DNA of 64,000 nucleotides from Cinnamomum chago (lineage: Eukaryota > Streptophyta > Magnoliopsida > Laurales > Lauraceae). The stretch covers positions 68,165,922-68,229,921 of the forward strand of contig CP142456.1 of the NCBI GenBank assembly GCA_038049695.1, written 5' to 3'. The notes under the pieces are model-generated. The model was not told the origin of the DNA. It saw only the letters and a program-made list of their open reading frames with translations, and ran no database searches. Made by a program: the position numbers and the translations under genes. Below, one piece after another: positions 4,338 through 39,152 of this stretch (position 1 is the stretch's first letter; every line of letters starts with the position of its first letter).

Positions 4338-4425
4338 GATTAAATTAAATATCCAAATGAGAAATTTTCAATATTCAAAAAAATAATAGGATGAAGAGAT
4401 GGTAATTGCAAATGTCATTTACCTG

Positions 4426-7509: not shown

Positions 7510-7620
7510 ATCTGTTTAAATGTTTGTAAGATAAATTTCATTAAACAAGATAATTGAAATTAACATTTAAAAATTATTTACACTAAAATTTAACATTACT
7601 GAAATAGTTCCCAACCATTT

Positions 7621-11079: not shown

Positions 11080-14000
11080 CTCCGTAAGTGCTTCTGTGGA
11101 AATCTAAAATGAGCAAGTACAATTAGCCCAATGTTTGGAGACATCATGAAAGTCACCTATCCATAAACTGCAAACTCCTTACTACAAGGTGGTTAGTCCT
11201 ATCCCATTCGAGAATGCACGATCCAACTTGCACTCAACAACTCGAATGCTTCGTCCCCTAGTCAAACAAAATTTCGGCAGCATGTCCGCGTGGTTCTCCA
11301 AGTACACGACACAGGTACAACATCAGTCGTACCTATGTATGTACACAGAGAACAATGGGACATCAACCGAAACTTTGTCTAACATCAGACTTGCATGAGC
11401 TATTGAGTATTAAGATGTATAATTGCATTCTCAAACTGTCCGAACTGGACAATTCAAGAATTGTATACGACAAAGTTCGAATGTACATCACAAGAACAAC
11501 GAATCTAGTCGAAGACCCAATCCATCGCGTCAAGGATTACCGAACTTATGTCGTACACAATTCTCGAACGGGTCTAAGTTTCACTAATGCATGCAAATGA
11601 ATAGAATAAGTTGATAATGAAAGGTTCACAACCAATGAAATCATCAAATATAAATTTACTGATTCAGGGACCGAGTAGAACAACACAGAAAAGCAAGAAT
11701 GGAATAAGAAGATGAGCAAATGAATGTTACAAACTTACAATTGACCAAGGTAAATAGATGAATCTACATGTAAATAGTAACATCACTAATCAAGACACGA
11801 GCCTGGCATTTCAATTCCTACTTGGGTCATTAACTCATTATTAGTTGTGATTTTAGGCAAAAAGAATAAAAATGTGTATATATCAAATTCCAACAAGAAA
11901 ACAGGGTGTTACTCCAAATACCAACCAGAACAAATACTAATTCAAAGTATTACCATTATTTGCTCAACTTGGGATTCGTGAACATGCCAGCAGACCTATT
12001 GACTAATTCAGAATGCACTACCAATACAAAAATCACTTCTTTTTTTTCCAAACCAATTCCAGTACTGCCTGTTTGCTTAATTGCCATTGCGTTTTTAGTT
12101 CTACTTTTCCTTTTTTTTTTTTTATCATTGACTTTCCAATAAGAATTCATAATAAATGAGGTTACATACGTGACATAAATATTGAAGAGTTTATGACTGA
12201 AGAAACCCAAGGTAAGGAAATCGATGTGACCTCAATCAAAGCAAAAATGATTCGTGCAAATTTATTGTCAATGAGTGAATATTCGGTAATTTCTTACCTA
12301 AACTTACTAAAAAATAAAAGTAATTGGTGTGGAGTCCATCTTCCACAGGTATTTTTTCGTTATCTTTCTCATTTCTTACCATATAAGTTATGATTGAGGC
12401 CAACTATATTGACAAGACAAATGTCCTAGCCTTATGCATTTGTCCATTTATTTCTATAAGAGCATATGGTATTGAAGAGCTTGTTTCTTATGGAACTTGT
12501 TCATGTATTTCTTATACTTCACCTTTTGTGTTTTTAGGTTTCACAGAGACCATTCCCCCACCACTCCAATCCAAGAAACCAATCAGTACTAGGATTCATC
12601 GTTGAGAATGAGTCCCCACCAAAGGGAAAGAAATTTAACATCAAGATAGATAAACACAAGGACTAGGTTTTACTCAATGATGACAAGCACATATTAGATG
12701 TTTAAGCTTGATTTGGTCATAGATTAGATGGGGGAACTATTTTTGTCTTTAATTAGCTCATCCAAACAATGACCGTTTGATTCGTTGGGACGTTTTTAGG
12801 ATGGACTGCAGTCATCATCGTCATCATCTTCGCCTTATTTCATTAATTTAATGTCCAGTTTTTGTATGGATTGGGTAATGGATTTCTATGAGTCAAATTT
12901 AAGGTGATGATTTATTTTTTTAAAATACCCCACCCTTTGTTTCAACTTCCTTGAAGTTTCATATAAATGCAAACTACCTGTATAAATCAGTTGGCAGGCA
13001 CCTGAGTCACTTTAGAGAGGAAAATGTTGCATCTTTTACACTATAAATAATATATAAAAATAATACAAAAAGTCTAAATAAGAGGAAATAAAACTAGAAG
13101 GGATGGATAGCAACTGCATAACACTTATTGCCTATGCATCAAGTATAATACATAAAAAATTAAATAGAGATGAAAAGAACCAAGTATGTGTGTATATGGT
13201 GCAAACAGAGGACAAAAACACTGTTTTGCAATAGCCAGTAGTTGGAACTCAGAACCAGCAGTGAAGACAACACCTACTGGTGGTTGGAACTCAGGTCCAA
13301 CTGTGATAATAGGGACCAAAGAGCTCCTGCTATTTGAAACTTTGAAACTCTATATCGAAATCCATCAACAAACATCAAACTAAATAAGGGTAGAATCATC
13401 TTTTCTGCATTCCTACTACAGTAATTCAAACAGTTGGTAAGCATTTCAGTAGTAATATCTTATATTCTTATTAAAAAGTTCCATCAAACAATTTAACTTT
13501 CATGGTAAAAAGACCTCATTGAATCTTTGGATCAAGCACTCGGAAGTCATCCATAAGTGATAAAAAAAAAGACCTGGAATGATCTCACTGTGGCTTTCCT
13601 TCACTTACTTGTCAAATGTCCACAAATAAAGAGCTATCAAGAACCTCATATCCATGCAAATATCTCATTTAGGCATTGCATTAAACATTTGCAATATGTA
13701 CTACATAGCAAATGACATTTGTTAGTTCACATCACGAAGCAGTAGTAATAGTAGTAGTCTTACCCGCTGATGACTTCAAAGGTCAAAATCTAATGTTCCC
13801 TTTCAAATTGGAAGAAAACAACAGATACAGTAACTGTGAGAAAATAGAAGAAGAAAAGATAATTAGGAGAGATGAAAGGTTATTCTAAAAAATAACAGAT
13901 ATGGTAACTGTGACAAAAAGGAAGAAGAAAATGTAGTTGGGAGAGATGAGAGGTAATTCTCAAACCACACACACACAGCAGAAAACTCATTTACAAATGG

Positions 14001-14640
14001 AAGAGGAATTGCTCCAATTTTAATAAAAGTTACAAATAATCCCTTTAATCAAATGGGCAGTACCTTCATTACTAAGCATGCATAATATTTTACAAGGCTT
14101 CCTAAACAAATAAACATTACAGAACCTACCTACCAGACTGTAATGAGCCACCATGGTCATAAACTAAAAGAAGGAAATTGAAAATTACAAGGCAAACCAC
14201 ATTCAGTAGAAGTTGCCTTCTTGCCAAATGGATTCAGTGGAAGAGTACCTCTGTTAGTGACAGAATAAACATCGGTGTTCAAAAGATTAAGATATTATAT
14301 AGCCACACAAATATCAGATAGAGACCCCAGTGATTCTTGTAAGGCTATAGTGTCATAAACACATCTCATCAAAACAGGCAAAAGTAGCCAAGATCTACAT
14401 GCATTCAACCACTGATTTCGACTCCGAGGCCTTGCATCACCGATTTTCCCCATCATTCATTCAACAACATTAACAAACAACAACAAATAAATCAAACGAA
14501 AATAAAATAAAATAAAATAAAACATACCAGCAGCTTTAGCAAGAGTAGAAATCGCTGAGATTGAATGGTGCGAGCTAGGGTATCCTACACTCAATACACA
14601 AAAACAGCAACAGGGAAAAAAATAAAAAAATTTGTAACTG
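11080..14640. other. CACTA-1 interior upstream of TNP2, no clear gene
   Basis: About 3.5 kb with no long reading frame. Two places look exon-like on the plus strand: one after an acceptor at about 12538 (open about 120 bases, encoding VENESPPKGKKFNIKIDKHK) and one at 13230-13320 with repeated GGWNSGP-type phrases. I cannot match either to a known protein, so they are only possible captured exons. The minus-strand transposase transcript must cross or start within this stretch. Confidence 0.4.
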
Positions 14641-14654
14641 TATACAGTTACAGA

Positions 14655-15250
14655 GAGAGACGGAGGGAGAAGGGGAAAAGGAGAGAGAGAGAGAGAGAGA
14701 GAGAGAGCTGGTGGTGGTTCCGGTGACAGCTCCAAACGCACGGGACGGCACAGTGCAGAGCGAGAGGAAGAGAGAGGGAGGGAGAGGGAGAGGGAGCGGG
14801 AGGGAGAGAGAGAACTCGGTATGGGCGGCGGGATGGCAGGTTTAGGCACGGGAGAGCAGAGGGCGGCGGCTGGGCAGAGAGGGTGAACGCAGGGAGAGGG
14901 GGAGAGAAGGGAAGGAGAGGGAGAGAAGAGAGAGAAGCGAAGGGGGAGCGAGTGAGAGAGAGAGAGAGGAGATGAGCGATTGAGGGCAGAGGAGATGAGC
15001 GCGCGGGAGAGCAGAGGGCGGGAGGGGAAAAAAACAGAGGAAGGAAAAGCAGAGGGCGGCGGCTGGGCAGAGAGGGTGAACGCAGGGAGAGGGGGAGAGA
15101 AGGGAAGGAGAGGGAGAGAAGAGAGAGAACCGAAGGGGGAGCGAGTGAGAGAGACAGAGAGGAGATCGATGAGCGATTGAGGGCAGAGGAGATGAGCGCG
15201 CGGGAGCTGAGGAAAAATGAAGAGGGAAAGAAAAAGAGGGTTTGGCGGGG
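14655..15250 (-). promoter_or_regulatory. CT-rich (minus strand) leader region of CACTA-1
   Basis: Nearly pure purine on the plus strand: (GA)n runs around 14683-14708 and an imperfect duplication in which the block around 14860-14980 is repeated around 15045-15180. On the minus strand this is a pyrimidine tract upstream of TNP2, at the place where CACTA elements keep the promoter and 5' leader. Similar CT-rich leaders occur in CACTA-2 (20060-20330) and CACTA-3 (35180-35480). The long Ser/Leu/Pro frames here are low-complexity artefacts. Confidence 0.5.
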
Positions 15251-15868
15251 TATTGACATTAGCGACCGCCATTTACCTTTTTGCGGCCGCCTATGGCGGT
15301 CGCCCGCTTTCTTGTGAGCAAATGCTCATTTCTCTAGTAGTGTTTCTTCTTCTTCCTCCTCCACTTCCTTCCTCCACCCATTTTTCATCTTCTTCCTTTC
15401 TTAGCTGCTTGTTTTTCATCTTCCTCCTCCTTCCTCCAACTCCATCTCAAACCCAAACCTCACATATTAAACGTCACAATAGTGGAATATGGTAGGGTTT
15501 CATGTTCTACCCTCATTGATCTCCGACGAGTTGTAGATCAAGAAGATGAAAAATACAACTAGGATTTCTGCGAGCTTGCTAGAATGTGAAAAGATGTGGA
15601 AGAGGAAGCATTGGAATCGATGAGCAACGCCTATTATCAGTTGAGTTTAGATCGATGGAGGAGGTGAGGGAAAGGAGGAAGATGAACAATGGGGAAAACG
15701 GGTTTTGATCGACTGTAAAAGGGCAAACGAGCGGCGATATCCCCTCTCAAGGAAAACTGAAAAAATTTATACCAAATCAGGCCTGTAGGATCATTGCAGT
15801 GTATAGAGTCTTTCTAAGCCTCTTTTGATTTTAAATGAGTTTAAGAGGATTTTTTCGGTAAAATCCTC

Positions 15869-16111: not shown

Positions 16112-17087
16112 AATTTTTCAAAGGTGAGCGCTATACAAGGCCCGCCAGTTTTGAAAATAAAAACGCCCCGTCAGTTTGACGTTTACTGCATTGAATGGGT
16201 TGTCATATCAAAAACAAGGCAACTAAATACCTTGAAGTACTCCTAATTTCTTTCTTCAAACCGATAATATATAAGTCCTAATTTTTCGCTAGATGGCTCT
16301 GTTTTTTCTCCAAATGGTTTCCATTGACGTGTTGTGACATTAAAAACTATTGCTATGAAAAAAGTGTGGCCCACAAGTTAGATGGTTTGGATTAAATACA
16401 TGGCCTACAAGCTCAAGTTGGTAGCAGGGCATAGTCCTCAGACGATAGCCCAATGAATCTATCAATAGGGCCCACCACTGACCCAAACTGCTTGAAATCC
16501 ACATCACTTTTTTTTACTAGGGGCGGTCTTATTTTGTCCAATCAAAGGTGTGATTTTTCATGAGGGCCCCAACATCCATTCATCACATGTAAATCACATT
16601 ATTTAACGGGGGGCATTTGTGGAAAAGAAAAAGATCATTACATATTTTGCCATAAAAGAGAAGGCCATTTAATTTGATTGGTTGGGATTTTTCATGAGTG
16701 GGCCATCGACAACCACTCACCACATGTAAATCATATTCTACAGTGGGACCACTTATGAAAATAAAAATAATTATTAGATAACGCGATTTAGAAGGCTGTT
16801 ATTTGGCCCACTTATAAAAAAAAGAAATCCGATCATAATAACTCTCAACTTATATGGCCCCTACTATAATCTCATTCAAATAGGAGCTTAACATATGTAC
16901 GTCCAACCTTTGAATCTCTCTCTCTCTCTCTCTCAAATTCAATCCTCCTAGTTAGAGCCTTGTATCTTATTTCGTCTCTCTCTCTTTCAAATTCAAGCCT
17001 CCTATTTTATATAGCCTTGTGCTCTGTTTCCTTTCCTACACACTCTCATAAAGAGGTGTGTTAATAAATGCCAGTAGAATGTTTTTA
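16112..17087. repeat. R2 repeat, copy a, left part
   Basis: Noncoding repeat beginning 'ggtgagcgctatacaaggcc' just after a TA run. Closely similar to 42002-43036 and to 57157-57975. It contains several TC microsatellites and near its end a 65-base unit ('gaggtgtgttaataaatgcc'). The final nine bases (17079-17087, atgttttta) are the left TSD of MULE-2. In copies a and c, R2 directly follows R1, so the two parts probably form one older mobile or duplicated unit. Confidence 0.75.
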
Positions 17088-18117
17088 GGGGAAACTACAT
17101 GAAAAATCCCTCTAGGACGCCCGAAGTAGGGAGAGAACCCAGCATTATTCTAGTGATGGGAGGGGTCCTTTGGGTGGGTTTCTTTATTTATTTTTTTGTC
17201 GTTTAGCGAGGTTGTCGATATCTACAATATAGTTGTCGATATCGACTAGTATGCGAAAACCTTTTATACATCGCCCCATGTCTTCATTTCTTTGTCAGAA
17301 CTTTTTCATCGTCTACAACAAGTGCTCTGCCGAATTTCCTTCTCAAAAAACAGCTCAAAAATTACTCCAAGTGGTGGTTCGATTCCATTAATAGGTTGGT
17401 ACCCACATTAAACACCTTCCTATATTGCATCATCTACCCTAAAATGTCATAAGTTTGATTCCTTTTCAGTAATGATTTCTATCAGTTGTATTCTGAACCC
17501 TAAAAGGAGCCGTTTGAAAACTGTACCAGTTGTGTAAATGCATATCTGTATGTAGCTTTGCTTGAAGATTACCATTTGTGTGGTAAATATCGTATTCGTT
17601 TTGTGCTTCGTTAATATCACTTTCGTTTTGGGTTTTTAGGTTTTGAAAAGGGGTTTCTTTTTTGTAGGCACTGTTTTTCTCTATATTGCATCATCTACCC
17701 TAAAATGTCATAAGTCTGATTCCTTTTCAGTAATGACTTATTTCAGTTGTTGTCTGAACCCTAAAAGGAGTCATTTTAATACTATACCAGTTGTGTAAAT
17801 ACATATCTGTATATAACTTTGCTTGAAAATTACCATTTGTGATGTAAATATCAATTTCGTTTTGTACTTGGTTAATATCACTTTTGTGTTGGGTTTTTTA
17901 GGGTTTGAAAAGGAGTTTATTTTTTGTATGAACTGTTTTTCTCTGTTGTGTTCTTTCAGTAAGTGACACTTAGCATAGTTTCATTATGTTCAAATAAGGC
18001 ACAGCATGGGCAATTTAACAGTGGCTAATGGTTTAGAAATATATACTTGCTCTGTCTTTATAAATGTTTTGAACTTTCGTATTTCTCTAACCAAAGTTCT
18101 TGTGATTTGACGATAGC
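17088..18117. promoter_or_regulatory. 5' end and leader of MULE-2 upstream of MURA
   Basis: About 1 kb with no reading frame of note. It includes a tandem duplication of a roughly 255-base block (17425-17680 compared with 17683-17940; shared phrases 'catcatctaccctaaaatgtcataag' and 'tttgcttgaa'). The MURA promoter is expected here; I cannot point to a TATA box with confidence. Confidence 0.5.
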
Positions 18118-19535
18118 ATGTCAGTGAGCGAGGTGTTGGTCATATTCCACTATGATGGTGACTTCCAATTCGATATAATCCATCCGGTGTACAATGGAGG
18201 AAATCAAAAGATGAGATATTTACCGACGGATATAACATATGACTCACTGGTTAACGAAGCAACTGAAGCATCTAATTGGAATTCATCCATTCGGAGATTA
18301 AGCATACAATACCTTCATCACAATGGACGGGCATTTTCAATGGCAAGCATCGACGACGACAATGATGTGAAGAGAATGTTCAAAGCATCGGGGAATGATG
18401 TGAATGGGATATATCTATATGTCTTCAAAGATACTAAGAACCGGCAAAGTATAGGAGGAGAACAATGGAGGTATGTGCATAGGTTCTATCGGTAAATCAA
18501 TAGATTACCAAAAACTAAGTATGTCTTCCTAGTTGCTTATTGTCCTTTGTTGATTCATTGTAGGTATGAAAAGAACGTTCGAGGTCAAAACTGTGCAAAA
18601 AAAGTGAGGATCCCGTGTAGAACTTGTACGAGAAACCATTGTATAGAGCCAACGCCCGCTACAGAGCTGCCTACCATTGATCTACATGAAGACAAAGACA
18701 TCCATTTCCCTTATGTGAGTAATGAATGCAGTCCACATCAGGTTGCAGTACAAGATGATGTTATTGATGATATTGACATTGGAACAAACAGTCATGATGA
18801 AATTCATTCCGATGAACATACTGCCATCGGACAGATTCGTCAGATCCCAAATGTGAAGATCGAAAGCAATGGTGTCGAGGTCAATCTAGTTAACACTGCA
18901 AATTGTTCAAATCAAACTTCAGTTGTTGATTTTGAAGACAGAATGGAGCCTGAAGAGGTGAACACGGAGGTTGGTAATAACTCGGCTAAGGAAATGTGGG
19001 TTGGCCGTGAGTTCCCTGATCGTCAGACATTTCGGAATACTCTTGCCAAGTTTGCAATTTATGCCAACTTTACTCTTAAACACTTGAAGACCAACTCGAC
19101 CAAGGTGACAGCTTGCTACAAAGATCTGGGTTGTCCTTGGCGGATCCACGCTTCTATTGTAGAATCAGGACCACAATTTAAAGTTAGAACATACAATCCT
19201 AACCACCGATGCTCGAAGCCATTGATGGGCATGACACATCGACAGGCAACTTTGGCCCTTATTTCTGAATTCATCATGGATAGAGTCCGACAAAACGTAG
19301 ATTTAAAGCCGAAGGAGATAATGAACGACTACCAAATGGAATTTGGGTCGACCATCAGCTATAGGAAGGCACTTATAGCAAAAGATTTGGCTCTGCGTAT
19401 TGTGCGAGGATCATACGAGGAATCCTTCCAGCTTCTGCCTCTCTACTGTATTGAATTGAAGAAAACCAACCCTGGCACAATAACAAACATAGACACCACG
19501 TCTGATGACCGTTTCAGAAGGTTTTTTTGGGCATT

Positions 19536-21987
19536 CACTACTAGAAAAAAGGGCTTTTATATCGGTTGCAAAAAGTGCCCTATATCGGTTTTTCATATAA
19601 CCGATATAATATCTTCAGTCAAGGTATTTTATATCGGTTAATATTTTTTTATATCGGTCATTTTTTTTTTATATCGGTTACACTGGAACCGACATAATAA
19701 TCTCTATATATAATATCGGTTAGGAAAATATGTGATATTAATTTCAATAAAACCGATATTATAGACAAATATTTTATATCGGTTGTATACATATATTTTA
19801 TATCGGTTGTATAGACATATTTTATATCGGTTATTATGGAACCGATATTATATATACATATTTTATATCGGTTATTTCCCCCCTTTTTATTTTTCCTTCT
19901 TCCCTCCCTTTTCAGGACGTCCTGCGGCTAACCGCCTGTGCACATGCGGCTAACCGCAAGTGCACATGCGGCTAACCGCCAGTGCACCTGCGGCTAGCCG
20001 CCAGTTATATATAATATTTTATATCGGTTATTATGAAACCGATATTATATACCTCAAATCCCTTAATCCCCCGCGCGGGCTCAGTCCTTCTTTCCCTCTT
20101 TTTTTTTCTTTCCCTCTTTTTATTTCCTTACCTCCCTTCTCTTTCTTTCTCCATCATTCCTTCTTTCCTCTCACTCTCGCTCTCTTCTCTCCTCACTCTC
20201 GCCTCTCTTCCCAGCGCTTCTCTCCCTCCAAAAACCCATTTCCTCTCACTCTCGCTCTCTCTGCTCTTCTCTCACTCTCGCTTTCTCTACTCTCTCTCTG
20301 CTCTCCCTGTCTCTCTCGCTCACTCTCGTTCTCCGGAGAAGTAGAAGACGACGACGACGACGACGAAGAGGAAGAAGCTGCTCTTCCGGCGCTGTGCAGG
20401 TGCCAGGTACATCACGTTCTTTCCTTTCTTTTTGTTTCGTTTCTTTCTTTCCCTTTTCTTCTGCTGCTACTGTTTTCTGTTCTCTCTCTCTCTCTGTTTT
20501 TCTTTTTTTTTTCTGTTTTCTCACGATCTCTGCTGCTGTTTTTCTTGCTGCTGTTATGTATTTTTTTTCCCTGTTGTTTTTCTTTCCCTGCTGTGTTTCT
20601 GCTGTTTTTTTTCCCTGCTGCGTTTCTTCACAATTTTTTTTTCCCTGCTGTTTCGGCTAGCCGCCTCCAAGTTGACGGCTAGCCTCCAACTTGGTTCGGC
20701 TAGCCGCCTCCAAGTTGGAGGCTAGCCGCCAGAAGTTGAAGGTGATTTTACACTACTTTCCATTCAATCTGGGTTAAATCTCAAAACATGAAAGTTGTAG
20801 CCCTCTGAAAAATCTTTCATTTGGATCAAGAATCATGTTGTTTGGAGTTCAGAAGAGGAAGTTATGAATTTTCTACTGGAGACAACTCTGCTTCACTCGG
20901 GTTGCTGTTTTTCTGTGACCAGTCCGCTTCAAGGTGAGTTTACACTACTTTCCATTCAATCTGGGTTAAATCTCAAAAGATAAAAGTTGTAGCCCTCTGA
21001 TAAATATTTCATTTGGATCAAGAATCATGTTGTTTGGAGTTCAGAAGAGGAAGTTATGAATTTTCTACTGGAGACAACTCTGCTTCACTCAGGTTGCTGT
21101 TTTTCTGTGACCAGTCAGCTTCAAGGTGATTTTACACTACTTTACATTCAATCTGGGTTAAATCTCAAAACATGAAAGTTGTAGCCCTCTGATAAATATT
21201 TCATTTGGATCAAGAATTATGTTTTTTGGAGTTCAGAAGAGGAAGTTATGAATTTTCTACTGGAGACAACTCTGCTTCACTCGGGTTGCTGTTTTTCTGT
21301 GACCAGTCCGCTTCAAGGTGAGTTTACACTACTTTTCATTCAATCTGGGTTAAATCTCAAAACATGAAAGTTGTAGCCCTCTGATAAATCTTTCATTTGG
21401 ATCAAGAATCATGTTGTTTCGAGTTCAGAAGAGGAAGTAATGAATTTTCTACTGGAGACAAATTCTGCCATTCAAATCAGGATGGCTCACGGCTAGCCGC
21501 AGGAAAAGTTGGGGGCTAGCCGCAGGTGCACTGGCGGTTAGCCGCAGGAAGCACAGAAAATCATCCTGAAAAAAAAAATGCTTACTGGAAAGCTGACCGT
21601 GGGTCTGGCGGCTAGCCGCCAGGTGACCGTAAGGTCACCTGACCCTTTCTAGAAGGACTATTTATAAAAAAAAAAATACATATATAATATTAAATCGGTT
21701 ACAGAACAAACGATATAATACAATCCCAAAAAACTGATATTATAAATATTTTTTATATCGGTTTCACTTTTTTTATATCGGTTTTACAGCAATATGTGTT
21801 ATAATTTCAGGTTTAAAAGACATCAGTTGTCCAAAAACCGATATGAAATAATACACATATTATATCGGTTATTGTTATCTATTATATCGGGGGTACTTAT
21901 ATCGGTTTGAAGTTTACTAAAAAACCGATATAATAGGTCTTTTATATCGGTTTTTAGCCGATATAAAAACCCTTTTTTCTAGTAGTG
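19536..21987. mobile_element. CACTA-2: 2.45-kb non-autonomous CACTA inside the MURA gene
   Basis: Ends CACTACTAGAAAAAAGGG and its reverse complement, with TSD att (19533-19535, 21988-21990). Both subterminal regions (19555-19880, 21690-21975) are full of tatatcggtt / aaccgatata in both orientations, the probable transposase binding sites. The interior has a CT-rich leader-like tract (20060-20330), palindromic gcggctagccgc motifs, and a four-unit 192-bp array, but no transposase. The termini and interior match CACTA-3, so both belong to one family, distinct from CACTA-1 in subterminal motif. Confidence 0.95.
20735..21480 (+). repeat. 192-bp tandem array in CACTA-2 (about four units)
   Basis: The phrase aaggtgat/aaggtgagttt recurs at 20738, 20931, 21123 and 21315. 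Each unit contains 'catttggatcaagaatcatg' and 'cttcactcgggttgctg'. The same unit occurs at 40075-40600 in CACTA-3 and, reverse-complemented, at 29525-30842 in MULE-2. Units differ by only a few bases. Confidence 0.9.
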
Positions 21988-23149
21988 ATTTGGACCCTGT
22001 TTAAGGTCTTTCACGTCTTCGCTGAGACCGATGATTGCTGTAGACGGTACACATCTACGAGGTAAGTATCCTGGTGTCTTGCTTGTAGCCGTGACATACG
22101 ATGCGAATCATAAGCTACTACCCATCGCCTTTGCCTTTGCGGAAGCAGAACGGCGTGATAGTTGTGAGTGGTTTCTTGCGAACTTATTCATAGCGGTTGG
22201 AGAACCACCCAATTTGACCATTGTTTCAGATCGTCAGAAGGGTCTTATTCCAGCTCTCCATAACACTATACCCTCCGCAGTGCATTGCTACTGTTGCCGT
22301 CACATAGCTGAAAATATCAAAACCGCTTTCAGTGACGGCGCAATCGTTATCAAATTCTGGCGTGCCGCAAAGTCCTATAGGCCTTACGTTTATGAGGCAT
22401 ACATGACAGATATACGTGCAGTCAACCAAGAGGCTTTCAGCTACATTGAGGCAATTGGGAGGCAGCGTTGGGCAAATGCATACGTGCAAGGCTGTCGATA
22501 TGACATACTAACTAGTAATGCGGCTGAGTGTACTAACAGCCTGTTAAGGGACACAAGGGTACTGCCTATTGTAAAACAGGTCGAGGAGATACGTGCCAAG
22601 TTAATGGAGTTCTATCAAAAGCGTCATCTTCAGTCAAAGAGTGTAACTACTCGTCTAACTCCGTATGCGGAAAAATTCTTGAGCCAAGAAATGGAGGAAG
22701 CACGCAGGGTTCATGTACGTGTCGCTGGCCTGGTCGAATTTCAAATACAATCCGCAGAGTACGTGGACGTAGACGATCTCGAACGCAGAACTTGTACATG
22801 TCGTAAATGGGAGATTTTGGGCCTCCCATGTTGTCCTGCACTTGCATCAATGAAGGTAAGGAACTATGATCCATATGAGTTTTGCGAGCATTGGTACCTA
22901 TCAAGCGTTTATCGTGCAACGTATAATGAAGTTCTACATGCTACCCGGGACAACAAGCAATGGGAATACACAATTGAAGAAAGAGTTCTTCCACCACAAG
23001 CAAGTAAACAACCAGGGCATCCTAAAAAGAACAGGATTCGTACCGAAAATCGTGGCCTCCAACGAAGGGTAGTTACCTGCTCCAATTGTAAAGCGAGGGG
23101 GCATAACCGTGGAGGTTGTCGCAATCCTCCACGTGATGTGAATTGCTGA

Positions 23150-23560
23150 TTCAAGATAAATGATGTAAATGGGTTGTTCAAAGCTTGAACAGTACATGGT
23201 TTTTTTTTGGATTTTGGTGTAAATGGGTTCCACTGTGGAATTGAAGATTACAGTGATTTTTTTGGTACAGTTTGTGATGTAAATGGGTTGTTCAAAGCTT
23301 GAACAGTGCATTGCCTTTTTTTGGGGTTTCTTGTGTAAATGGGTTCCATTGGGGAATTGAAGATTGCATTTATTTTGCTAGTACAGTTTGTCATGTACAT
23401 GGGTTGTTCAAAGCTCGAACAGTGCAGTTCTTTTTTGTTTTCTTGGGGATTTTGGTGTAAATGGGTTCCACGGGGAATTGTAGATTGCATTTATTTTTGT
23501 GGTCCGGTTTGTGATGTAAATGGGTTCCTAGAAACTGTTCGAACGTGAATGAATGGTGAT
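23150..23560. repeat. 116-bp tandem repeats downstream of MURA
   Basis: Units beginning 'atgtaaatgggttgttcaaa' start near 23162, 23278 and 23393, with a partial unit near 23511. Each unit has two halves that both start with 'gtaaatgggtt'. It probably covers the 3' untranslated region of the transposase gene. Confidence 0.8.
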
Positions 23561-23639
23561 ATAAATGGGGTTTATATACATTTAGATTATTGTATCCATG
23601 TTGTTCTTATTAAGTAATTCCTTCCGTTCAAAATTATGA

Positions 23640-24340
23640 AATGCAAACATTCCTGCAGCCGTCAGTAGCGAAACTGACATTTCAAAACTAGTCGATACTG
23701 ACAACTATAAGCTGTCAGTATCGATATTTATTTTACATTCCAAAAGATGATTACTTACAACTTTTATTTCAGCCACCTGACAAAACTAGTCGATACTGAC
23801 AACTTTAATCTGTCGATATCGACAACTTTGATACATTCCAGCAGCTGATTACTTACAACTTTTAATTCAGCCATCTGACGAAACTAGTCGATACTGACAA
23901 CCAAAGGTCGTCGTTATCGACAACTTTTATACATTCCAACATCTGATTACTTACAACTTCTAAATCAGAAGACTGACAAAACTGGTCGATACTGACAACG
24001 AAAAGTTGTCGTTATCGGCGACTTTTATACATTCCATCATCTGATTAGTTACAACTTTTAATTCAGACGCCTGACGAAACTAGTCGATACTGACAACCAA
24101 AAGTTTTCGTTATCGACAACTTTTATACATTCCAGCATCTGATTACTTACAACTTTTAATTCAGACGCCTGACGAAACTAGTCGATACTGACAACCAAGA
24201 GTTGTCGTTATCGACAACTTTTATACATTCCAATCCACATAGAGTTACAACTTTTATTTCAAAACACTGACAGACCTAGTCGATACCGTCAACTTTAAGT
24301 TGTCGATATCGATGAGTTTTATACATTACAAGAATTACTT
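23640..24340. repeat. 98-bp tandem repeats with gtcgatactgac motifs
   Basis: The phrase ctagtcgatactg (or ctggtcgatactg) recurs at 23688, 23785, 23883, 23982, 24080, 24178 and 24277, a step of 97-99 bases. Each unit has two inverted motifs (gtcgatactgacaac and gttgtcgttatcgacaac). The related gttgtcgatatcgac also sits near both ends of MULE-2. The array separates the convergent MURA and PMD-C48 genes and may hold transcription ends or transposase sites; that role is inference. Confidence 0.85.
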
Positions 24341-24678
24341 GCTTCTATAATTCAACCCACCAAATTGGCATACAATATTTGGGATGGTTACAGCAACCAT
24401 CATCACCTCCCTGCAAAATTAAGTATTGGACTCCTTTAATGATCACCCCAAACATGGCATCAACCCCACCACCATACAGACTCCAAGTGGAACCCAAAGC
24501 ATCCCAAATTCAATAAACTGATATTCAACCATTCTAAACCATAACATGCATTCAACCATTCTATTGTCCAACAACAAAAGGATTATATATACAACTAATA
24601 TTCATTTTGCACAATGGGCAAAAAATAAAGTTTGCGAGAATCAATATAAAGTTCTGCACAATGTCTTCTTGAGTTAAG
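24341..24678. other. Spacer downstream of the PMD-C48 stop
   Basis: Unique, A/T-rich sequence between the 98-bp array and the PMD-C48 stop codon. Probably the 3' untranslated region of that minus-strand gene. No frame or repeat seen. Confidence 0.4.
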
Positions 24679-27600
24679 TCATGGGAAGTCACTTAAGTCG
24701 GTCAACCCCAGTCTGTTGGCATTCAACCGCCAGCTCCTTTTGAATATCTCTACGACGATTTTGCTGCGAAAATAGGGAATGTCTTCTTGGGTGAAGTTGA
24801 TGCTACGGCGGTGCACACAGTGTTCCGCGAAAGACATTGCAAACACTCCACAGTCATTTCCATTTTGCTGACGAGGGATGCCATCCTTTACAAGCTAACC
24901 CCAAAGGTAAGGGTCTGACCATCCAAATTAGCTATATCTTTCATTCAACCATGCAACATGCGTGATCCATTATCACAATGCACTTTTAGATTACGAATAG
25001 TATATGTTTACGCCAATAGGCAGATGCATATGATGCGGAATTTGGAAAAGTTATGATGTTTTAGGTAACATAACATACAAATTTCAATGCGTGCTTTACC
25101 GATCGCCGATCGCCGGCCAAGCTATTGTAGAACTCCCATCGTTTCTCGTCAACCAATCTGACAAGCAAGGAGAAATGTGATCGGTGATAGACTATAAAGA
25201 TAAGCGTGCGTGTTTCCCTGGAGTCCCACACCCTATGTCCATGCTTCCCAAATGTGGCTTCCACAGCAGATTCAGAACCATCCGACCACCAACTCTGCAA
25301 GATAAATTGAGGACATAGTCAGCTACAGCATAGAACTGGAAATACACTTACTAGTATGCTCCTCTTTCACAACTATTGACTTACACAGACACTTGGATCA
25401 ACGATAAAACATGTATCACATTCATCCCGTAATATTTCAAAATAGTAATACATGACATTAGTGTCCATCCAAGTCCCTTCTTCAAGAACCTTCTTCAGAT
25501 CCGAGCTTGAGATCATTGTGCAGATGCTATCCAACTCATCGTTCCTGTAACAAATCACAAACAAGCACTTAAGCGCATGGTTATTTTGCTCTGCTTTGTT
25601 TTGCATTTTACAGCTCATTGATAAACATAGAGAAGTCCTAAATGAAGCCAAGGAAGAATATAACAAGCTAAAGAATACAATAGATGAGTCAGGAACTACT
25701 GAGGTTCTGTTCACATGAAGACACACCATTTGATTTTTGAACTTCATTACCTTGTAATTGGTCAGTGATAAAAAAGAACTTCCTATTAATCTTCAGGTTG
25801 ATACAGAATATAAGTTACAAGATTTAAAAAAACTCTCTAAGGAATGGGAAGTGAAGGGAAAGGTATACAGGAAAAGGCTTAATGACTTAAAAGTAGATCT
25901 CATGAAACAAATTGAACAGTAAGATTCCTCAGAGTATTAATCAGTATTAATCAGCATGATTTTCACCATCATCATAAAAAAGGTCATAATTATTATTTAT
26001 CATTATTAATTAAGCACAATATATGATTTCTTACATTTCCTCGTAGTATTCTTTGAATCCCTTGAGAAAGTACTTATCAAGGTCGCTCAGCACGTAACTG
26101 CTGTGAACTATAGAATGAGCATAATCTTCAAACTTCATCGGTATTTTGCGCATACGAGGCAGCCGTTTGATCCTCCACAAAAGTGAGTCGAGTGTAGCGA
26201 AGGGGGCTGAAACAACCAAAGCGGACTCACTGGATATTGGGACTGGAGAGGTGAACAATGTTCTGCTAACTGAAGGGGTACCGAGTACTTCTTCGATTGG
26301 TGGTGCTTCCGGAGAGTGAGGCCAGCTGATAGAACCGTCTGTTATACACTGTTGGGCTGGTTCGGCATCAACTGGTGTTGCACTCCTCTTGGCACTTTTC
26401 TTTATCCCCGGACTCTTCACAGCAGCTCTTTTCCGATGTTTAAACGTTATTGTCACCTTCTTCTTGACATCCTCTTCATCGGATTGCGAGCTACTACACC
26501 CATCCAACTTAAAGTCCTCAAATGTTGTCCCAAAGGCACCCTTAAATTTTGTCAATTTCTTCCGGATTGATGTTGTTAGCTTCTCAATAGACACTTTCCG
26601 GCGTTCCGCTCTATCACAGGAGCGCTCTAAACGAGCCACAAGATCCTCCGCCTGAAAATTCAACGCACACATATTCATTTATCATGTCATTACGAGCAAG
26701 TCAAATGTATTAATGATGAATTGAAAATATGTTTAATGGAGGGTCATTAGCAGTGACTTAATGGAGTGATTTTAGACATACATGCTTAATTGGGATGGTG
26801 CTTTCCTCCGGTTTGGCGATCTCCTCCGCTTGGCTATCCTCCATATGATCCATCTGAGCTGACCTCCCAATAAACTTTAGCGTGTTTTCACCATACCATA
26901 ACAAATACTCATCGGAATGTGCTTTTAGCTTACACTTCTCCCCATGTAGAACAAGTTGGGCTCTAGCAGCCCATAATCCAGCTACCTCCTCGTCCAACTG
27001 CGTGCTGTAGTCAACCACAACATACCATGTTCGTTCTCGTCTGACAAATGGCATATTGAATTGTGGTGGCACCAACTGTTTGAATCTGAATTGCTTCATA
27101 ACACGCCACGTATTATGTCGTTCCACGATCCAATAATAGACAAGGACGGTGGACGATGAAAACAGAGCACGATCAACTTTCCGCACCTTCTCAACAAACT
27201 TTTTACCGTATCCCCGATAGGGTTGCCAGTCGAACTGCATACACAAAATTAGCAAGTTTCTACAGTCAGTATAGTATTTGTATAAAAGAATACAACAGGA
27301 TTTAAAAAATGAAAAAAAAGAACTTTTTACCTTACCCCATCAGCCTTCAGATTGTTCAACTGCTTTCTAACTTCATTCACTGTTGCAAGAGCTGGTTGTT
27401 CTTTAAGCCTCTTCTTCCAGGTCTTAAACAATGGAAACTGTATATCCTTTTTCCACGTTTCGGCCGGTTTAGGACACCGCCCGATCGACATCCTAGTGTA
27501 AGCCCATAACTGAACCATTCCAAAAAAAAATTATAGGTTATATAAGATTGAAGAAAATAAGCTACACCAAAACCCCAAAATGTAGTTATTTAGATGGCAG

Positions 27601-28565
27601 ACTGGACAATGTGTAAAGAATGAGAACAAGGACCTGTAACAGCTGAAGAGGCCCGGTGGGTGTCCTAAGTTGGTGTCCCTCTTCCTCTCCGTGTACATCC
27701 TTCCCCTCCTTTCCCTGTTCATCCTTCCCCTTCTCTTCTACCCCGATCTTCTCCTTATTACACCGAGTAGCGTTTGCCAACATCCTATAAAGATTCGCAA
27801 GACAAGCCGGTGCCCAGGCGTACGGTTTAAAATCTTTAAACAACTCCAGCAGATAGGCAGGGCCTCGGGCACCAGAAGTTTGTGAGATGATTTGACCGGA
27901 CACCAAGAAGAAGAGGTAGGCCCGTGTAGCCTGAATCTCATATTCCTTGTATTTCTTCTTCTTCTTCTTCTTTTCCAGTTCCTCAGCCTTGAAATTGTCC
28001 TCAAGCTACTTAAATTTCAAAGTCATGCCGACGAAGTCAACCTTCTTTTGTGGGGTAATACCGAGCAACTCCTGACATACTGTTTGAACTAGCCTCCCCG
28101 GGAAAGTTCGACCGGTTACTAGGTCCCCTTCAATGGGTAGACCGTATATATAAGCCACGTCCTCAAGTGTTATAGTGGCTTCTCCGGATGGAAAATGGAA
28201 AGTATTTGTTTCAGGACGCCACCTCTCTACCAATGCAGTGATTAACGCGTGGTCTATGACCATACGACTTATCTCTACCAAATGATGGAGACCCGTCTGC
28301 CTAACATATTCCTTCTGGGTGTTTGTAAGCCCCCATATTGCTGCGTCCGGGTTTGTTGGGATGCACCTGAGGCGACCGAACTCCTGCTACAAGGCTAGTT
28401 AGGAATCATACACTAAAAGGAAATACATTACTGATTGAGAAAGTTAAGGAAGTAAGTCTATATGTAGTTACAATATACCTCTCCCTGACGAATTCCTTCC
28501 GATATATGATTTTGTTGGTTATATAGGAGAACTTTTGGAGCCTCGGCGGTCTGTTCTGCTGACGT
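24679..28565 (-). pseudogene. Plant mobile domain fused to ULP1-like C48 cysteine protease (transposon gene)
   Basis: Eight exons fit in phase with GT/AG borders: 28479-28565, 27634-28386, 27336-27509, 26782-27234, 26035-26651, 25385-25544, 25100-25294, 24679-24885 (about 880 codons). The first half is a plant mobile domain (AIWGLTNTQ; ALITALVERWRPETNTFHF; TITLEDVAYIYGLPIEGD; LWAYTRMSIGRCP). The linker (26200-26560) is basic, Ser/Pro-rich. The second half is C48 protease: LEEGTWMDTNVMYYYFEIL, catalytic His in SHFSLLVRLVDEKRWEF, then Gln and Cys in RQQNGNDCGVF. The expected Asp after the His strand reads Asn (FYNSL). One nonsense codon, TAG at 28006-28008, stands where the family usually has Trp. 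The first coding exon with ATG was not found. Such fusions are known from plant transposons; the cargo role is unknown. It faces MURA. Confidence 0.88.
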
Positions 28566-29524
28566 CTGCAAAGTAACAAACGTAACAATTAGTACATTGG
28601 AGACATGACGATAATATAATTTATGGATATGATTAATAATGCATAAGCATACAGCAAAAGCATAAGCATCCACCAAAAGGTATAAAACTACAGAAATCCA
28701 AATTGGCTTTTCCCAATTTGAAACAATCACAGTACCCAAACTGCAACCACCACCAGCAAGTGAGGTACTAGTCAATATATGTGTCAATTTCTTTTTTTCG
28801 GTCATATAGGTTTCGTAAAAAATATTAAAGATGTGATGGAGTTACATAAACAGTAATATAATGCAAAGACAATCTGTGCATGAACTCTTTAACCTTTATG
28901 TATTCAGCACTCTGTAAAGAGTTTCTTACAGGTTCGAAATCTCTCACTCTACGATTCCCAATTGCTTTTTAGGAATTTATTATTCTGTGTTCAAATGGTT
29001 GTATGGGTGTTGATTATGGGTTATGGGTTCTCAATTTTTCATTCATTGGTTTTATGAGTCAAGTTATGTTTTAACTGTTCCTCTGAATTGGCATTATAAT
29101 GGAAGATTGAATTGACATACAGAGGAGTTTTAATTCAGAGAAGTTCACGTGGTAATCTGTTCTGTTGGCACTATCATCTTGACCATTTTTGTGTTTGATT
29201 CATATTTTTTTAAAACTGACAATGAGTGGTAAGGGAAAGGGCAAAGAAAAAGTTCTCCCAACAAGTGAAGACAATGCTTGGGAGAAAAAGAAAACTGAAT
29301 GGAAGATGAGTGATTTGCATTTGCATTGATGAAATTTTCATTTTTTTTTTGTCTTTTGGATCCAAAATGGTGTTTGTTATCTTTGTTTGTTGCAGATTTC
29401 TTTTGTTATTATCATGTATTATTGTGGATTTGTTTGAGATTCTCAGATCTTGTGCATTAGAAGCAGATCTGTTTCTGCACTGCAAGCTCTAGTTTCTGCA
29501 GTCCCTATCACAGCCTTCTCCACT
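28566..29524. other. Intron/upstream of PMD-C48, no gene seen
   Basis: Noncoding in my reading, apart from weak frames. It lies between exon 28479-28565 and the 195-bp array and is presumably part of a long first intron of the PMD-C48 gene. Confidence 0.4.
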
Positions 29525-30842
29525 TCATCTTCCAGTAGAAAATTCGTAACTTCCTATTCTGAACTCGAAAAAACATGATTCTTGATCCAAATGAAAGATT
29601 TATCAGAGGGCTACAAATTTCATGTTTTAATATTTAACACAGTTTGAGAGGAAAGTAGTGTAAAATCGCCTTGAACCTGACTGGTTTGAGAAAAACAGCA
29701 ACCTGCTGAGTGAAGCAGAGCTGTCTCCAGTTGAAAATTCATAACTTCATATTCTGAACTCGAAACAACATGATTCTTGATCCAAATGAAAGATTTATCA
29801 GAGGGCTACAACTTTCATGTTTTTAGATTTAACCCAGATTGAATGGGAAATAGTGTAAGATCACCTTGAAGCTGACTGGTTTGAGAAAAACAGCAACCTG
29901 CTGAGTGAAGCAGAGCTGTCTCCAGTAGAAAATTCATAACTTCCTCTTCTGAACTCGAAACAAGATGACTATTGATCCAAATGAAATATTTATCAGAGGG
30001 CTACAACTTTCATGTTTTTAGATTTAACCCAGATTGAAGATTGAATGGGAAGTAGTGTAAGATCACCTTCAAGCTGACTGGTTTGAGAAAAACGGCAACC
30101 TGCTGAGTGAAGCAGAGTTGTCTCCAGTATAAAATTCATAACTTCCTCTTCTGAACTCGAAACAACATGATTCTTGATCCAAATGAAAGATTTATCAGAG
30201 GGCTACAATTTTCATGTTTTGATATTTAACCCAGTTTGAAAGAAAATTAGTGTAATATCCCCTTCAAGCTGACTGGTTTGAGAAAAACAGCAACCTGCTG
30301 AGTGAAGCAGAGCTGTCTCCAGTTGAAAATTCATAACTTTATATTATGAACTCGAAACAACATGATTCTTGATCCAAATGAAAGATTTATCAGAGGGCTA
30401 CAATTTTCATGTTTTGATATTTAACCCAGATTGAAAGGAAAGTAGTGTAATATCACCTTGAAGCTGACTGGTTTGAGAAAAACAGCAACCTGCTGAGTGA
30501 AGCAGAGCTGTCTCCAGTAGAAAATTCATAACTTCCTCTTCTGAACTCGAAACAATATGAATATTGATCCAAATGAAATATTTATCAGAGGGATACAACT
30601 TTCATGTTTTTAGATTTAACCCAGATTGAATGGAAAGTAGTGTAAGATCACCTTGAAGCTGACTAGTTTGAGAAAAACAGCAACCTGCTGACTGAAGCAG
30701 AGTTGTCTCAAGTAGAAAATTCATAACTTCCTCTTTTGAACTCGAAACAACATGATACTTGATCCAAATGAAAGATTTATCAGAGGGCTACAACTTTCAT
30801 GTTTTTAGATTTAACCCAGATTGAATGAAAAGTAGTGTAAAA
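29525..30842 (-). repeat. 195-bp tandem array in MULE-2 (about seven units)
   Basis: The phrase cttgaagctgactgg (or variants) recurs at 29671, 29864, 30067, 30262, 30458 and 30652. Each unit is the reverse complement of the 192-bp unit in CACTA-2 and CACTA-3 ('cagcaacctgctgagtgaag', 'catgattcttgatccaaatg'). Units here replace 'gtcacagaaaaa' by 'gtttgagaaaaa', so they form their own subfamily. The array lies inside the presumed first intron of the PMD-C48 gene. Confidence 0.9.
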
Positions 30843-31386
30843 TCCGGGATATGGATTTAACTGTTTCATGTTTTCTTGATGGTCTAAGTCCGTGGTATGG
30901 ATCAACCATGAATATATAATGGGCGAAATACCAATTAGTGGCTACCATACTTATTATTGACTCAATAAAAGCAATCTAAATATGGCCATTATTGCAAGAA
31001 GACTTGTGAAAAGAAGGAATACTCACATAACATAAACCTAGATCTAGTAATTCAGTATTAAAAGGGTTTTAAAAAAAAAAACAAAAAAACGAACTGAGTC
31101 TTTAGCGTCTCTGTGCATTGAGAGGGTTTGAAAAAAACAAAAAAAACATCTTCTCAGTTGGGTAACAATGCCATACAATCCCTTTTTTTCCTTAGAAAAC
31201 CCAATCAACAAACCTAATCAGTCAAAATCACTATGGGTTCGTTTAATTTGGAGATTGGGTTTCATGTTAAAGAACAGTGGAAAAAAAATGAACTTGCATT
31301 TTCGAACCAATGCAGGAAAAAAAAAAAAAAAACGGAATCTCTGTTTAAACCAAATGCAAACAAGAGAAAATGATTAGAATACATAC
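30843..31386. other. MULE-2 right interior, no gene seen
   Basis: A-rich noncoding stretch with poly-A runs (31066-31090, 31316-31332). Nothing further recognised. Confidence 0.4.
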
Positions 31387-31699
31387 CTCCATGTGCTTGC
31401 CCACTGTGTATAACCTTTGAAAGAAGGCGCTAAACGATGCTTGGGACCACTACCAGGGACCAGCGAAATGGAAAGTTGTCGACAGCGACTGTGGAAGAGG
31501 GAAAATGAAGATGACGAAATAGGGAAGAAAGAGTTTCTTGCGGTTAAAGGAAAACCGCATTAGTTGTCGATATCGACAATACCAAAAACCAACTAAAAAA
31601 AACAGGAAGGGGCCCAGAGGGCCTCTTCAGTGTATTAACTCCTACTGGGCCGTCCAACTGCACCTGGCTCACTATGGGGCTTTTTCCCCTAGTTTCCTC
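31387..31699 (-). promoter_or_regulatory. Right end of MULE-2: likely 5' exon and promoter of PMD-C48
   Basis: On the minus strand a donor-like GTATGT lies at the exon edge near 31387. Upstream of it is about 140 bases of C/T-rich leader with no stop in one frame, then gttgtcgatatcgac at 31563-31577 and the terminal repeat. This fits transcription of the PMD-C48 gene starting at the right end and splicing over the 195-bp array to 28565, but that is inference. Confidence 0.4.
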
Positions 31700-31708
31700 A
31701 TGTTTTTA

Positions 31709-31833
31709 ATATGGTCTCTCCTACACTCTCATAAAAAGGTGTGTTAATACATGCCGTAGAATGTTTTTAATATGGTGCACGGTGGCTTGCCTTTATTGGA
31801 TGGGGGATTTTGGAGAATTTCTCTTTTTCAAAA
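31709..31833. repeat. R2 repeat, copy a, remainder
   Basis: R2 continues after the MULE-2 TSD with another 65-base unit ('aaaaaggtgtgttaataca', 'gccgtagaatgtttttaat'), comparable to 42965-43035. Its last nine bases (31825-31833, ttttcaaaa) are the left target site of MULE-3. Confidence 0.65.
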
Positions 31834-34494: not shown

Positions 34495-35129
34495 CACTAC
34501 TAGAAAAAATGGTTTTTATATCGGTTGCAAAAACTGCCCTATATCGGTTTTTCATATAACCGATATAATATCTTCAGTCAAGGTTTTTTATATCGGTTAA
34601 TATTTTTTTATATTGGTCAATTTTTTTTTATATCGGTTACACATGAACCGACATAATAATCTCTATATATAATATCGGTTAGAAAAATATGTGATATTAA
34701 TTTCAATATTTTATATCGGTTATTATAAAACCGATATTATATACACATATTTTATATCGGTTGTATACATATATTTTATATCGGTTATTATAAAACCGAT
34801 ATGATATACACATATTTTATATCGGTTGTATACACATATTTTATATCGGTTATTATGGAACCGATATTATATAAACATATTTTATATCGGTTATTATGAA
34901 ACCGATATTATATACCCAATGATTTTACATCGGTCTTCAAATCCCTTAATTGCCCGCGCGGGCTCAGTGGTTCTTTCCCTCCTTTTTATTTTTCCTTTCC
35001 TCCCTTTTTCAGCACGTCCTGCGGCTAACCGCTAGTGCACCCACGGCTAACCGCCAGTAATATATACATATTTTATATCGGTTATTATGAAACCGATATT
35101 ATATACCCAATGATTTTACATCGGTCTTC

Positions 35130-36235
35130 AAATCCCTTATTCGCCCGCGCGGGCTCAATGGTTCTTTCCCTCCTTTTTATTTTTCCTTCCCTCCCTTCTC
35201 TTTCTTTCTCCATCATTCCTTCTTTCCTCTCACTCTCGCTCTCTTCTCTCCTCACTCTCGCCTCTCTTCCCAGCGCCTCTCTCCCTCCAATAACCCCTTT
35301 CCTCTCGCTCTCGCTCTCGCTCTCTCCTCTCTTCACTCTCGCTCTCTCTTCTCTCTCTTCTCTCTCTGCTCTCTCGCTCTCCTCTCACTCTCGCTTTCTC
35401 TACTCTCTCTGCTCTCCCTGTCTCTCTCGCTCACTCTCATTCTCTTTCACTCTGCTATTTCTCTGTCTCTCTCGATCGACCAACCCTCTATCTCGTTCTC
35501 ACCTGTCCCTCTCGCCATCGCCCTCCATGCGAGCAATACTAGCCGACCCTCCTCCAACTATTGCGCGGACCTCACAACCTATCACCCTTGTCGCCTCCCT
35601 GCGCAGAGTCTCCACCGATCTCACATCTCATCATCCTTTTCACGATGCCCTCTCCATCGTCGTCATCTCCTCGTGTGTGGAACCTCGCCAGAGCCTCGGC
35701 AGAACCTATCTGGACTCCCCCTCTGGCGCCGATCCTCTCCATTATCACCGACTGCGCTGCTACCCTGAGGCGACGCTCATTCACGCCCAGACACGCCCCT
35801 TTCCCTTTCCCTCTCCACGCCAAACCGCACCACTGCCATCCACAGGTAAGGAACTGCCCCTTCTCTCCCTGTCATCTACACCAACTCCACTGCCTTGCAC
35901 CGTCACAGCACCTATGGACAGCCACACCCTTCATGTCCATCTTCTTCTTTTTTTCTTTCCATCACTCTCTCTCTTTCTCCTCGCTACATCTGCCCTTCTC
36001 CCTCATCGTGCACCCCCTTCCCCCCTCTTTCTTTTTCTCTCTTTCATTCTCCTTCTTCCCCACCTCCACTCCATCTCCCTTCTCCTTCACCACATCTCTC
36101 TTTCCTCTCTCTTCCACCCTCTCTCATCTCCTTCGCTCACTGCGCTAACCCACTACCCTGCACACTTCCCTCATTGCTTGAGCCCGTCTCTGCATCATCT
36201 TCTCCATACGCAGTGGCACAACTTTGAATAAGGGA
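35130..36235. other. Pyrimidine-rich leader and low-complexity tract of CACTA-3
   Basis: CT-rich DNA similar to 20060-20330 of CACTA-2 for the first 300 bases. It is followed by C-rich sequence with a 398-residue open frame (35035-36231) made almost wholly of Ser, Leu, Pro and His. Other frames of the same stretch are also open, which is expected of such composition. I do not call a protein. Part of 35500-36235 may be a captured 5' untranslated region. Confidence 0.5.
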
Positions 36236-39078: not shown

Positions 39079-39152
39079 GAACGGAAATGGCTCAGTTGGT
39101 TTGTGGAGGCTGCCACACTCTTTTAATGTATATTCGTGGAACATCAGTTGGG
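39079..39152 (+). pseudogene. LOL1-like: Captured exon of an LSD1-like zinc-finger gene (LOL1 type)
   Basis: After an acceptor (ttgaaacag) the exon encodes [20 protein letters not shown] followed by TSVG, then a donor gtaggt. This is the second LSD1-type C2C2 zinc-finger repeat of LSD1-like regulators (programmed cell death control in plants). Against the family pattern (RGATSVQC) one residue is missing and the exon ends just before the second Cys pair. I found no neighbouring zinc-finger exons, so this is a fragment carried by CACTA-3. Confidence 0.75.

Follow-up and report, generated by a model that had tools for sequence, protein, structure and literature searches.

We found that three families of Mutator-like elements (MULEs), each with a transposase gene and a gene for a plant mobile domain (PMD) protein, contain dyad-symmetric sites of family-specific sequence. 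These sites adjoin both genes and lie between them, and in two families they are also located near both ends. This suggests that the private dyad sites of an element may be a family-specific way of escaping host silencing. In our preferred reading, to which we give a probability of about 0.5, the PMD protein, with or without a C48 protease domain (PMD(-C48)), would bind the dyads of its own family and counteract silencing like VANC. The occurrence of family-specific dyads at both ends and in an array of PMD(-C48) MULEs is new here; a literature search, which covered few subscription journals, revealed no account of PMD(-C48) MULEs with dyad arrays in the text that the sources make available.

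A whole family-1 element is located in the window, by which we mean the complete stretch of 64,000 nucleotides of Cinnamomum chago DNA analysed here. It is 14,612 bp long in this copy and has the exact 9-bp TSD ATGTTTTTA on both flanks (Table 1). In addition to the 9-bp TSD, MuDR DNA-binding, MULE and SWIM domains typical of MULE membership were found in MURA (profile search: DBD_Tnp_Mut 1.2e-12, MULE 9.4e-18, SWIM 1e-4). MURA on the plus strand and PMD-C48 on the minus strand are convergent, and arrays of 116-bp and 98-bp units lie in between. The initial annotation had described a MULE with both genes within an exact 9-bp TSD, in convergent orientation and with internal arrays, and all of this was confirmed. 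It had given the terminal repeats as about 10 bases, which corresponds to the best part of an imperfect repeat of about 24 bp; according to a by-eye count over the copies, the usual ends agree at 21 of 24 positions. A sequence of approximately 50 bp (CTCATAAARAGGTGTGTTAATAMATGCC...) was seen by eye at 17030-17087 and 31700-31780, outside the 9-bp TSD. It flanks both sides, and the target of the window element is thus a near-repeat.

Table 1. Positions of features in the window and, in the last three rows, in the family-3 element L046.
Feature	Position	Strand	Remark
TSD, left copy, ATGTTTTTA	17079..17087	.	flank comparison
Whole family-1 element	17088..31699	.	end matches and TSD
Left terminal repeat	17088..17111	+	about 24 bp, imperfect
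Left subterminal dyad site 1	17212..17227	.	1 mismatch to TTGTCGATATCGACAA
Left subterminal dyad site 2	17233..17248	.	1 mismatch, 21 bp from site 1
MURA exon 1	18118..18470	+	predicted
MURA exon 2, first part	18564..19535	+	DBD_Tnp_Mut domain
CACTA-type insertion	19536..21987	.	TSD ATT, splits MURA
MURA exon 2, second part	21991..23149	+	MULE and SWIM domains
116-bp tandem array	23161..23526	.	downstream of MURA
98-bp tandem array	23683..24331	.	with dyad sites, between the 3' ends of the genes
PMD-C48 exon 9	24679..24894	-	C48 Gln and Cys (QQNGNDCGVF)
PMD-C48 exon 8	25079..25294	-	C48 His (HFSLLV), Asn replacing Asp (WEFYNS)
PMD-C48 exon 7	25385..25544	-	
PMD-C48 exon 6	26035..26651	-	linker
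PMD-C48 exon 5	26782..27234	-	last part of PMD
PMD-C48 exon 4	27336..27509	-	
PMD-C48 exon 3	27634..28386	-	first part of PMD; in-frame TAG 28006-28008
PMD-C48 exon 2	28479..28565	-	predicted
About 195-bp tandem array	29531..30844	.	PMD-C48 intron 1, only in 11 of 19 copies
PMD-C48 exon 1	31387..31392	-	Met-Glu, inferred
Right subterminal dyad site	31564..31579	.	perfect
Right terminal repeat	31676..31699	-	
TSD, right copy, ATGTTTTTA	31700..31708	.	flank comparison
L046, dyad run of 7	3663-3878		about 50 bp upstream of the inferred PMD start
L046, dyad run of 7	6199-6414		between the two genes
L046, dyad run of 6	8034-8216		upstream of the transposase frames

The copy in the window is dead and represents a decayed member of a large plant transposon family, since MURA is split by a CACTA-type element of 2,452 bp and PMD-C48 has a single in-frame TAG; the insertion had been missed in the initial annotation, and the stop codon is a further correction to it. 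When MURA is read across the insertion, the frame is open over 827 codons. The insertion is present in one of the 19 family-1 copies compared below and holds a 192-bp array at 20739-21461. This array and that in intron 1 of PMD-C48 (29531-30844) are related, with units of approximately 192-195 bp in opposite orientation (about 92%), and the intron-1 array is perhaps the remnant of an older CACTA element. Facing CACTA-type ends (CACTACTAGAAAAAA) are also found about 7 kb apart at 34495-41569 of the window.

The PMD-C48 gene was drawn on the window copy as a model of nine predicted exons with GT-AG introns on the minus strand. The same exons from the copy C6:61400628-61412226, which has a large MURA deletion, are open throughout and correspond to a spliced protein of 890 aa. 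It contains PMD at residues 63-451 (2.5e-68, profile positions 1-346 of 347, above the gathering score of PF10536) and Peptidase_C48 at residues 821-869 (8.1e-8; 32.8 bits vs a gathering score of 20.7). The catalytic residues of C48 are His, Asp, Gln and Cys. In families 1 and 2 the domain, which matches SENP1 with an E of 2e-11, keeps His, Gln and Cys but has Asn at the Asp position of SENP1, the His/Asp stretch aligning to SENP1 weakly (4.3 bits). Thus, activity of the Ulp1-like part is plausible, not certain. The predicted PMD structure was unusable (mean pLDDT 38.7). DUF1985, which is linked to VANC, was found neither in the spliced PMD-C48 protein at E<=1 in a profile search nor in a genome search, which ran without a positive control.

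The genome (1.06 Gb, 14 contigs) was searched with the left end of the window element (1,013 bp; 40 matches, 40 of 181 candidates scored) and with its right end (850 bp; 42 matches, 40 of 98 candidates scored). A left end could be paired with a right end, at a distance of 6 to 24 kb, at 33 places, one of which is the window; seven left and seven right ends are unpaired. We compared 19 copies, namely the window and 18 of the other 32 paired places. PMD exon sequence is present in all of them (one holds 51% of it) and the C48 region is at least 99% present in 16, the three copies without most or all of it being internally deleted or incomplete. The C-terminal part of MURA is at least 90% present in 15 of the 19 copies, and all seven tested parts of MURA, PMD and C48 are at least 90% present in 12; an intact pair of both genes was found in none. 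Among the 14 pairs outside this set, at least nine contain a C48 match within the best 150 of 978 candidates. An exact 9-bp TSD was detected in nine of 16 testable copies, a weaker one in four (1-2 mismatches; two only with shifted borders and one by eye) and none in three. An assembly artefact was ruled out by the location of the copies at separate insertion sites with TSDs of their own.

The pairwise distances of MURA and PMD-C48 (Mantel r 0.947, 0 of 5000 permutations, 14 copies) indicate that the two genes share one history within family 1. Relative to neutral, N/S over the 19 copies is in MURA 0.59 for changes in at least two copies vs 0.88 for singletons (Fisher p 0.041), and in PMD-C48 0.48 vs 0.75 (Fisher p 0.013); since the copies are related, all these p-values are guides only. 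For the shared changes, N/S is 0.47 in PMD, 0.36 in the linker, 0.54 in C48 and 0.55-0.61 in MURA. The shared changes include stop-creating ones (four in MURA, nine in PMD-C48), and some of them thus arose post-inactivation or in parallel. Between family 1 and a second family described below, dN is 0.34 in PMD exon 3 (243 codons) and 0.19 in the MURA C-terminus (229 codons), with dS saturated. Purifying selection on both genes is indicated by the lower N/S of shared changes together with the between-family dN, and we read the pattern as probable decay after insertion combined with constraint in the lineage that made the copies.

The initial annotation had considered that other copies might lack PMD-C48 or that it might be a single recent capture, and had named constant presence, purifying selection and agreeing histories of both genes as the features to look for. 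With 33 paired places, PMD in every copy compared, C48-poor copies being deleted or incomplete ones, and the N/S values and Mantel correlation given above, the copies bear out the joint presence of the two genes. Passive capture by the window copy only is ruled out by the 19 copies and the second family.

Inspection of family 1 revealed a 16-mer dyad, TTGTCGATATCGACAA, which is located about 120 bp from either end of the element and again in the array between the genes. In the window copy the right site precedes the inferred PMD-C48 start codon by approximately 170 bp, and the 98-bp array has 13 inner sites at three or fewer mismatches. When the 19 copies were scanned for TTGTCGATATCGACAA, allowing up to three mismatches (0-0.25 sites per copy with shuffled sites as the control), the left site was found in 17, the first one 110-145 bp from the end; the other two copies have no left end, and some copies contain two to four left sites, 21 bp apart. 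The right site was found in 18 copies, 101-123 bp from the end, and there is none among the bases of C12:16703518-16714611, in which the right end is incomplete. Inner sites, 6 to 18 each, are present in 17 copies, the other two having lost that region. With a weight matrix made from six array sites, both ends were the best places outside the array, and genome-wide TTGTCGATATCGACAA occurs exactly or with one mismatch at 655 sites vs 10 for the reversed control. Palindromes overall are not above shuffles (13 vs 15.5 14-mers in the window element outside the CACTA insert), and thus the dyad claim rests on this one repeated dyad, which also rules out an artefact of counting palindromes. Conservation of the dyads within the family-1 array does not clearly exceed that of the remaining unit (entropy 0.29 for dyad 1, 0.55 for dyad 2 and 0.45 for the rest).

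End sites and array were kept in a short relative of 3,682 bp (C1:1948213-1951894), which is too short for both genes. It is one sampled from the dyad-site clusters listed genome-wide, and since 723 bases in and around it were read, gene remnants may exist in it. Its flanks agree over TTAAAAAAA, a weak TSD because it is AT-only. Compared to the window element, its ends are 82% and its array about 81% identical. Against the majority of 10 copies, its end sites show a difference at one of 48 positions, compared to 47 of 268 positions in the remaining parts of the ends (p 0.0037). The loss of both genes with retention of the array needs two separate deletions, which fits a cis role of the array.

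When the genome was searched for PMD (5,124 candidates, 117 scored), we found L044, in which the C-terminal part of MURA faces a whole PMD-C48 with an 85-bp array between them, as in family 1. This second family is 70% identical to the window element in the C-terminal part of MURA (229 residues) and 42% in the main stretch of PMD-C48. The element is 12,200 bp long, has the exact TSD TTTTATCAA, and contains GCGGGGATATCCCCGC-like dyads at both ends and in the array, in positions as in family 1; the array has 23 GATATC sites. Its left end (800 bases) shows an exact TSD and two dyads about 120-155 bp inside, which were expected from the window layout, though the expectation was not recorded beforehand. 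The right end of L044 resembles the window terminal repeat by eye. Its 6 kb are found wholly or nearly so at four other places, one of them in two pieces and one nearly identical to L044. With up to two mismatches, the family-2 end pattern occurs 333 times forward and 333 times reverse, with clear pairs (control: 3 and 10), and the family-2 dyad at 641 sites vs 11 in the control. Applied to one element each, the matrix of family 1 fails to detect the sites of family 2 and vice versa, and the motif change is partial, since the core GATATC is common to both. One dyad in roughly the corresponding position was also found in each of two further ends of the family-2 terminal-repeat group, L048 (4.6 kb from a PMD match) and L049 (ends 1.4 kb apart). 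The window itself contains another MULE-type element of this group at 1300-15868, with the exact TSD TAAAGTCTT and long terminal repeats. Its subterminal dyads lie about 120 bp from either end, a 108-bp array (1908-2149) in it contains the family-2 dyad, and tblastn revealed no match to MURA or PMD-C48 in it. An open frame of 866 aa at 8505-11103, inside this element, is of CACTA type and encodes tnp2 transposase, DUF4218 and Transpos_assoc domains.

The third family is represented by L046, a MULE with terminal repeats of about 110 bp and the exact TSD TTGTTTAAA. Facing a PMD gene that revealed no C48, its transposase has FAR1 and MULE domains and an interrupted frame, and is 22% identical to the window MURA over the sole matching stretch. 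Given this third MULE type with PMD and arrays, C48 is not an essential part everywhere. The family-3 dyad TCGGC-N8-GCCGA forms 20 sites in three 33-bp-phased runs (up to 3 mismatches of 10), the longest run in 100 mononucleotide shuffles being 2. There is no phased site within about 690 bp of either end. The piece L046:3104-6994 (query 139-4029), which contains the PMD gene and two arrays, is 99-100% identical in 15 others of 34 scored candidates. As the identity is limited to this piece, a module of PMD and arrays was apparently dispersed very recently in a different context.

Two further PMD loci were considered. L043, with a PMD gene beside a 74-bp array containing GGGTTCGAACCC, was left out of the argument, since the array may be that of a neighbouring retroelement and its 10 kb revealed no match to the window MURA; we found no family-1 dyad in it and one weak family-2 score (4.8 bits vs a background maximum of 0.8). 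L045 is a case without the pattern, with no TRF tandem array, MURA match or dyad clearly above background, and its element borders are undefined. The 5,124 first-look PMD and 978 C48 candidates of this one genome include several nearly identical copies with open frames. At C10:59768590-59801066 there are three whole stop-free PMD frames within about 33 kb, which are possibly host MAIL-like genes.

In its full-length form, family 1 is a short-TIR MULE with convergent genes for the transposase MURA and for PMD-C48, a PMD fused to an Ulp1-type cysteine protease domain. Each family has a private dyad-symmetric site upstream of each gene and in a tandem array between their 3' ends. All this is seen in the sequence. 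Based on these data we propose that the sites would be bound by the PMD(-C48) protein of the element, and that the promoters of the element would thereby be freed or shielded from silencing, in the manner of VANC in VANDAL elements. Silencing factors at these sites may lose SUMO, or a modifier related to it, through the C48 part where this is present. The anti-silencing part of this proposal is suggested by the VANC precedent (PMC5735166, PMC10398659) and by silencing roles of host PMD proteins (PMC5418596, PMC7156037), as described in the accessible parts of these papers. The initial annotation had supposed that PMD-C48 helps the transposon; the site arrays strengthen this, and it is still something we infer. 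A more general version, in which PMD would be a sequence-specific DNA-binding module in two unlike MULE types, with or without C48, and would provide a second, VANC-independent class of self-encoded anti-silencing directed at the private dyads, is tentative and in our estimate falls somewhat short of an even chance. In this version, host silencing proteins such as MAIN and MAIL1 would be relatives of a site-specific anti-silencing factor.

Since all three families have a transposase gene too, the sites could be the transposase's own. The end dyads would then serve MURA in excision, the array would titrate or regulate MURA, and PMD-C48 would have another role. The distance of the family-1 end dyads from the ends (about 100-190 bp in the 19 copies) would be within transposase reach, dyads are kept in elements without both genes, and the FAR1 domain of the family-3 transposase is a DNA-binding domain. 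However, an array located 4 kb from the ends is unneeded for end recognition, and in family 3 the phased sites adjoin the genes instead of the ends. Further, the strongly diverged family-3 transposase goes along with the same habit, PMD being the other gene in common. We consider MURA binding rather unlikely and favour PMD as the binder, because family 3 has another transposase, no C48 found, and sites away from the ends.

Tandem repeats are frequent in plant transposons. Together with the similar conservation of dyads and remaining unit in the family-1 array, this speaks for arrays which are promoter or enhancer repeats for host factors or neutral slippage repeats, with PMD-C48 acting elsewhere. 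This is clearly unlikely in our opinion: the same dyad is found at both ends and in the array, the difference between families is alike in both, and one short derivative retained the dyad. Neutral repeats would not match the ends, and a motif that changes from family to family would not be accounted for by host factors. The view that PMD-C48 is passive cargo acquired by transduplication is in line with gene capture by MULEs, which is known from the accessible text of PMC13317346 and PMC5418596, and with the lack of both intact genes in any of the 19 copies. Against it stand the presence of PMD in all 19 copies, the occurrence of the two genes in a second family that is divergent, the constraint on shared changes and the congruent gene histories, which make it highly improbable.

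As far as the available parts of the respective papers describe them, VANDAL21 and VANDAL6 with VANC in Arabidopsis (PMC5735166, PMC10398659) resemble our elements in the combination of a MULE with an accessory gene and in short noncoding tandem-repeat motifs, which differ between related families; family-specific short motifs in noncoding tandem repeats were found here. The VANC21 motif YAGTATTAY has no dyad, whereas the motifs of our families are dyads, and there is a similarity, which may be fortuitous, between the VANC6 motifs AGTTGTCC/AGTTGTAC and the family-1 half-site AGTTGTCG. A difference to VANDAL/VANC is the negative result for DUF1985 in the spliced protein and in the uncontrolled genome search mentioned above; in its accessible text, the paper of Hosaka et al. 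uses the word DUF1985 once. Kaonashi (KIU) elements are presented as Ulp1-carrying VANDAL/VANC elements (PMC13317346) and are, like family 1, non-TIR or short-TIR MULEs with an Ulp1/C48 domain. Among their features, family 1 has the Ulp1 domain and the short TIR, and a VANC-type gene was not found in it. Unlike in Kaonashi, the partner of C48 here is PMD, and the part of that paper available contains no description of dyads at both ends.

PMD inside MULEs is known from PMD-C of grasses and Amborella (Ikeda 2017, PMC5418596), and in the accessible text the authors speculate that captured PMD serves TE anti-silencing. PMD-C is there described as transposase fusions, whereas here PMD is encoded by a separate convergent gene with site arrays, fused to C48 in two families and C48-free in the third. 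MAIN and MAIL1 belong to the same domain family and are silencing-related, and a promoter motif (DOWN) is enriched among the genes requiring them (PMC7156037, PMC5418596). They differ in being host genes for standalone PMD proteins, and direct DNA binding is left open in the parts of these papers available.

The dyads described here are of importance for the understanding of PMD proteins. In the host they affect silencing and gene expression, and the molecular role of PMD is open according to the accessible text of PMC5418596 and PMC7156037. As each PMD gene is paired with a defined candidate DNA target, the question of DNA binding by PMD can be addressed by gel shift. Should PMD be the binder, plants would have a second transposon-encoded, sequence-specific anti-silencing system, the family-specific targets of which would evolve alongside the protein.
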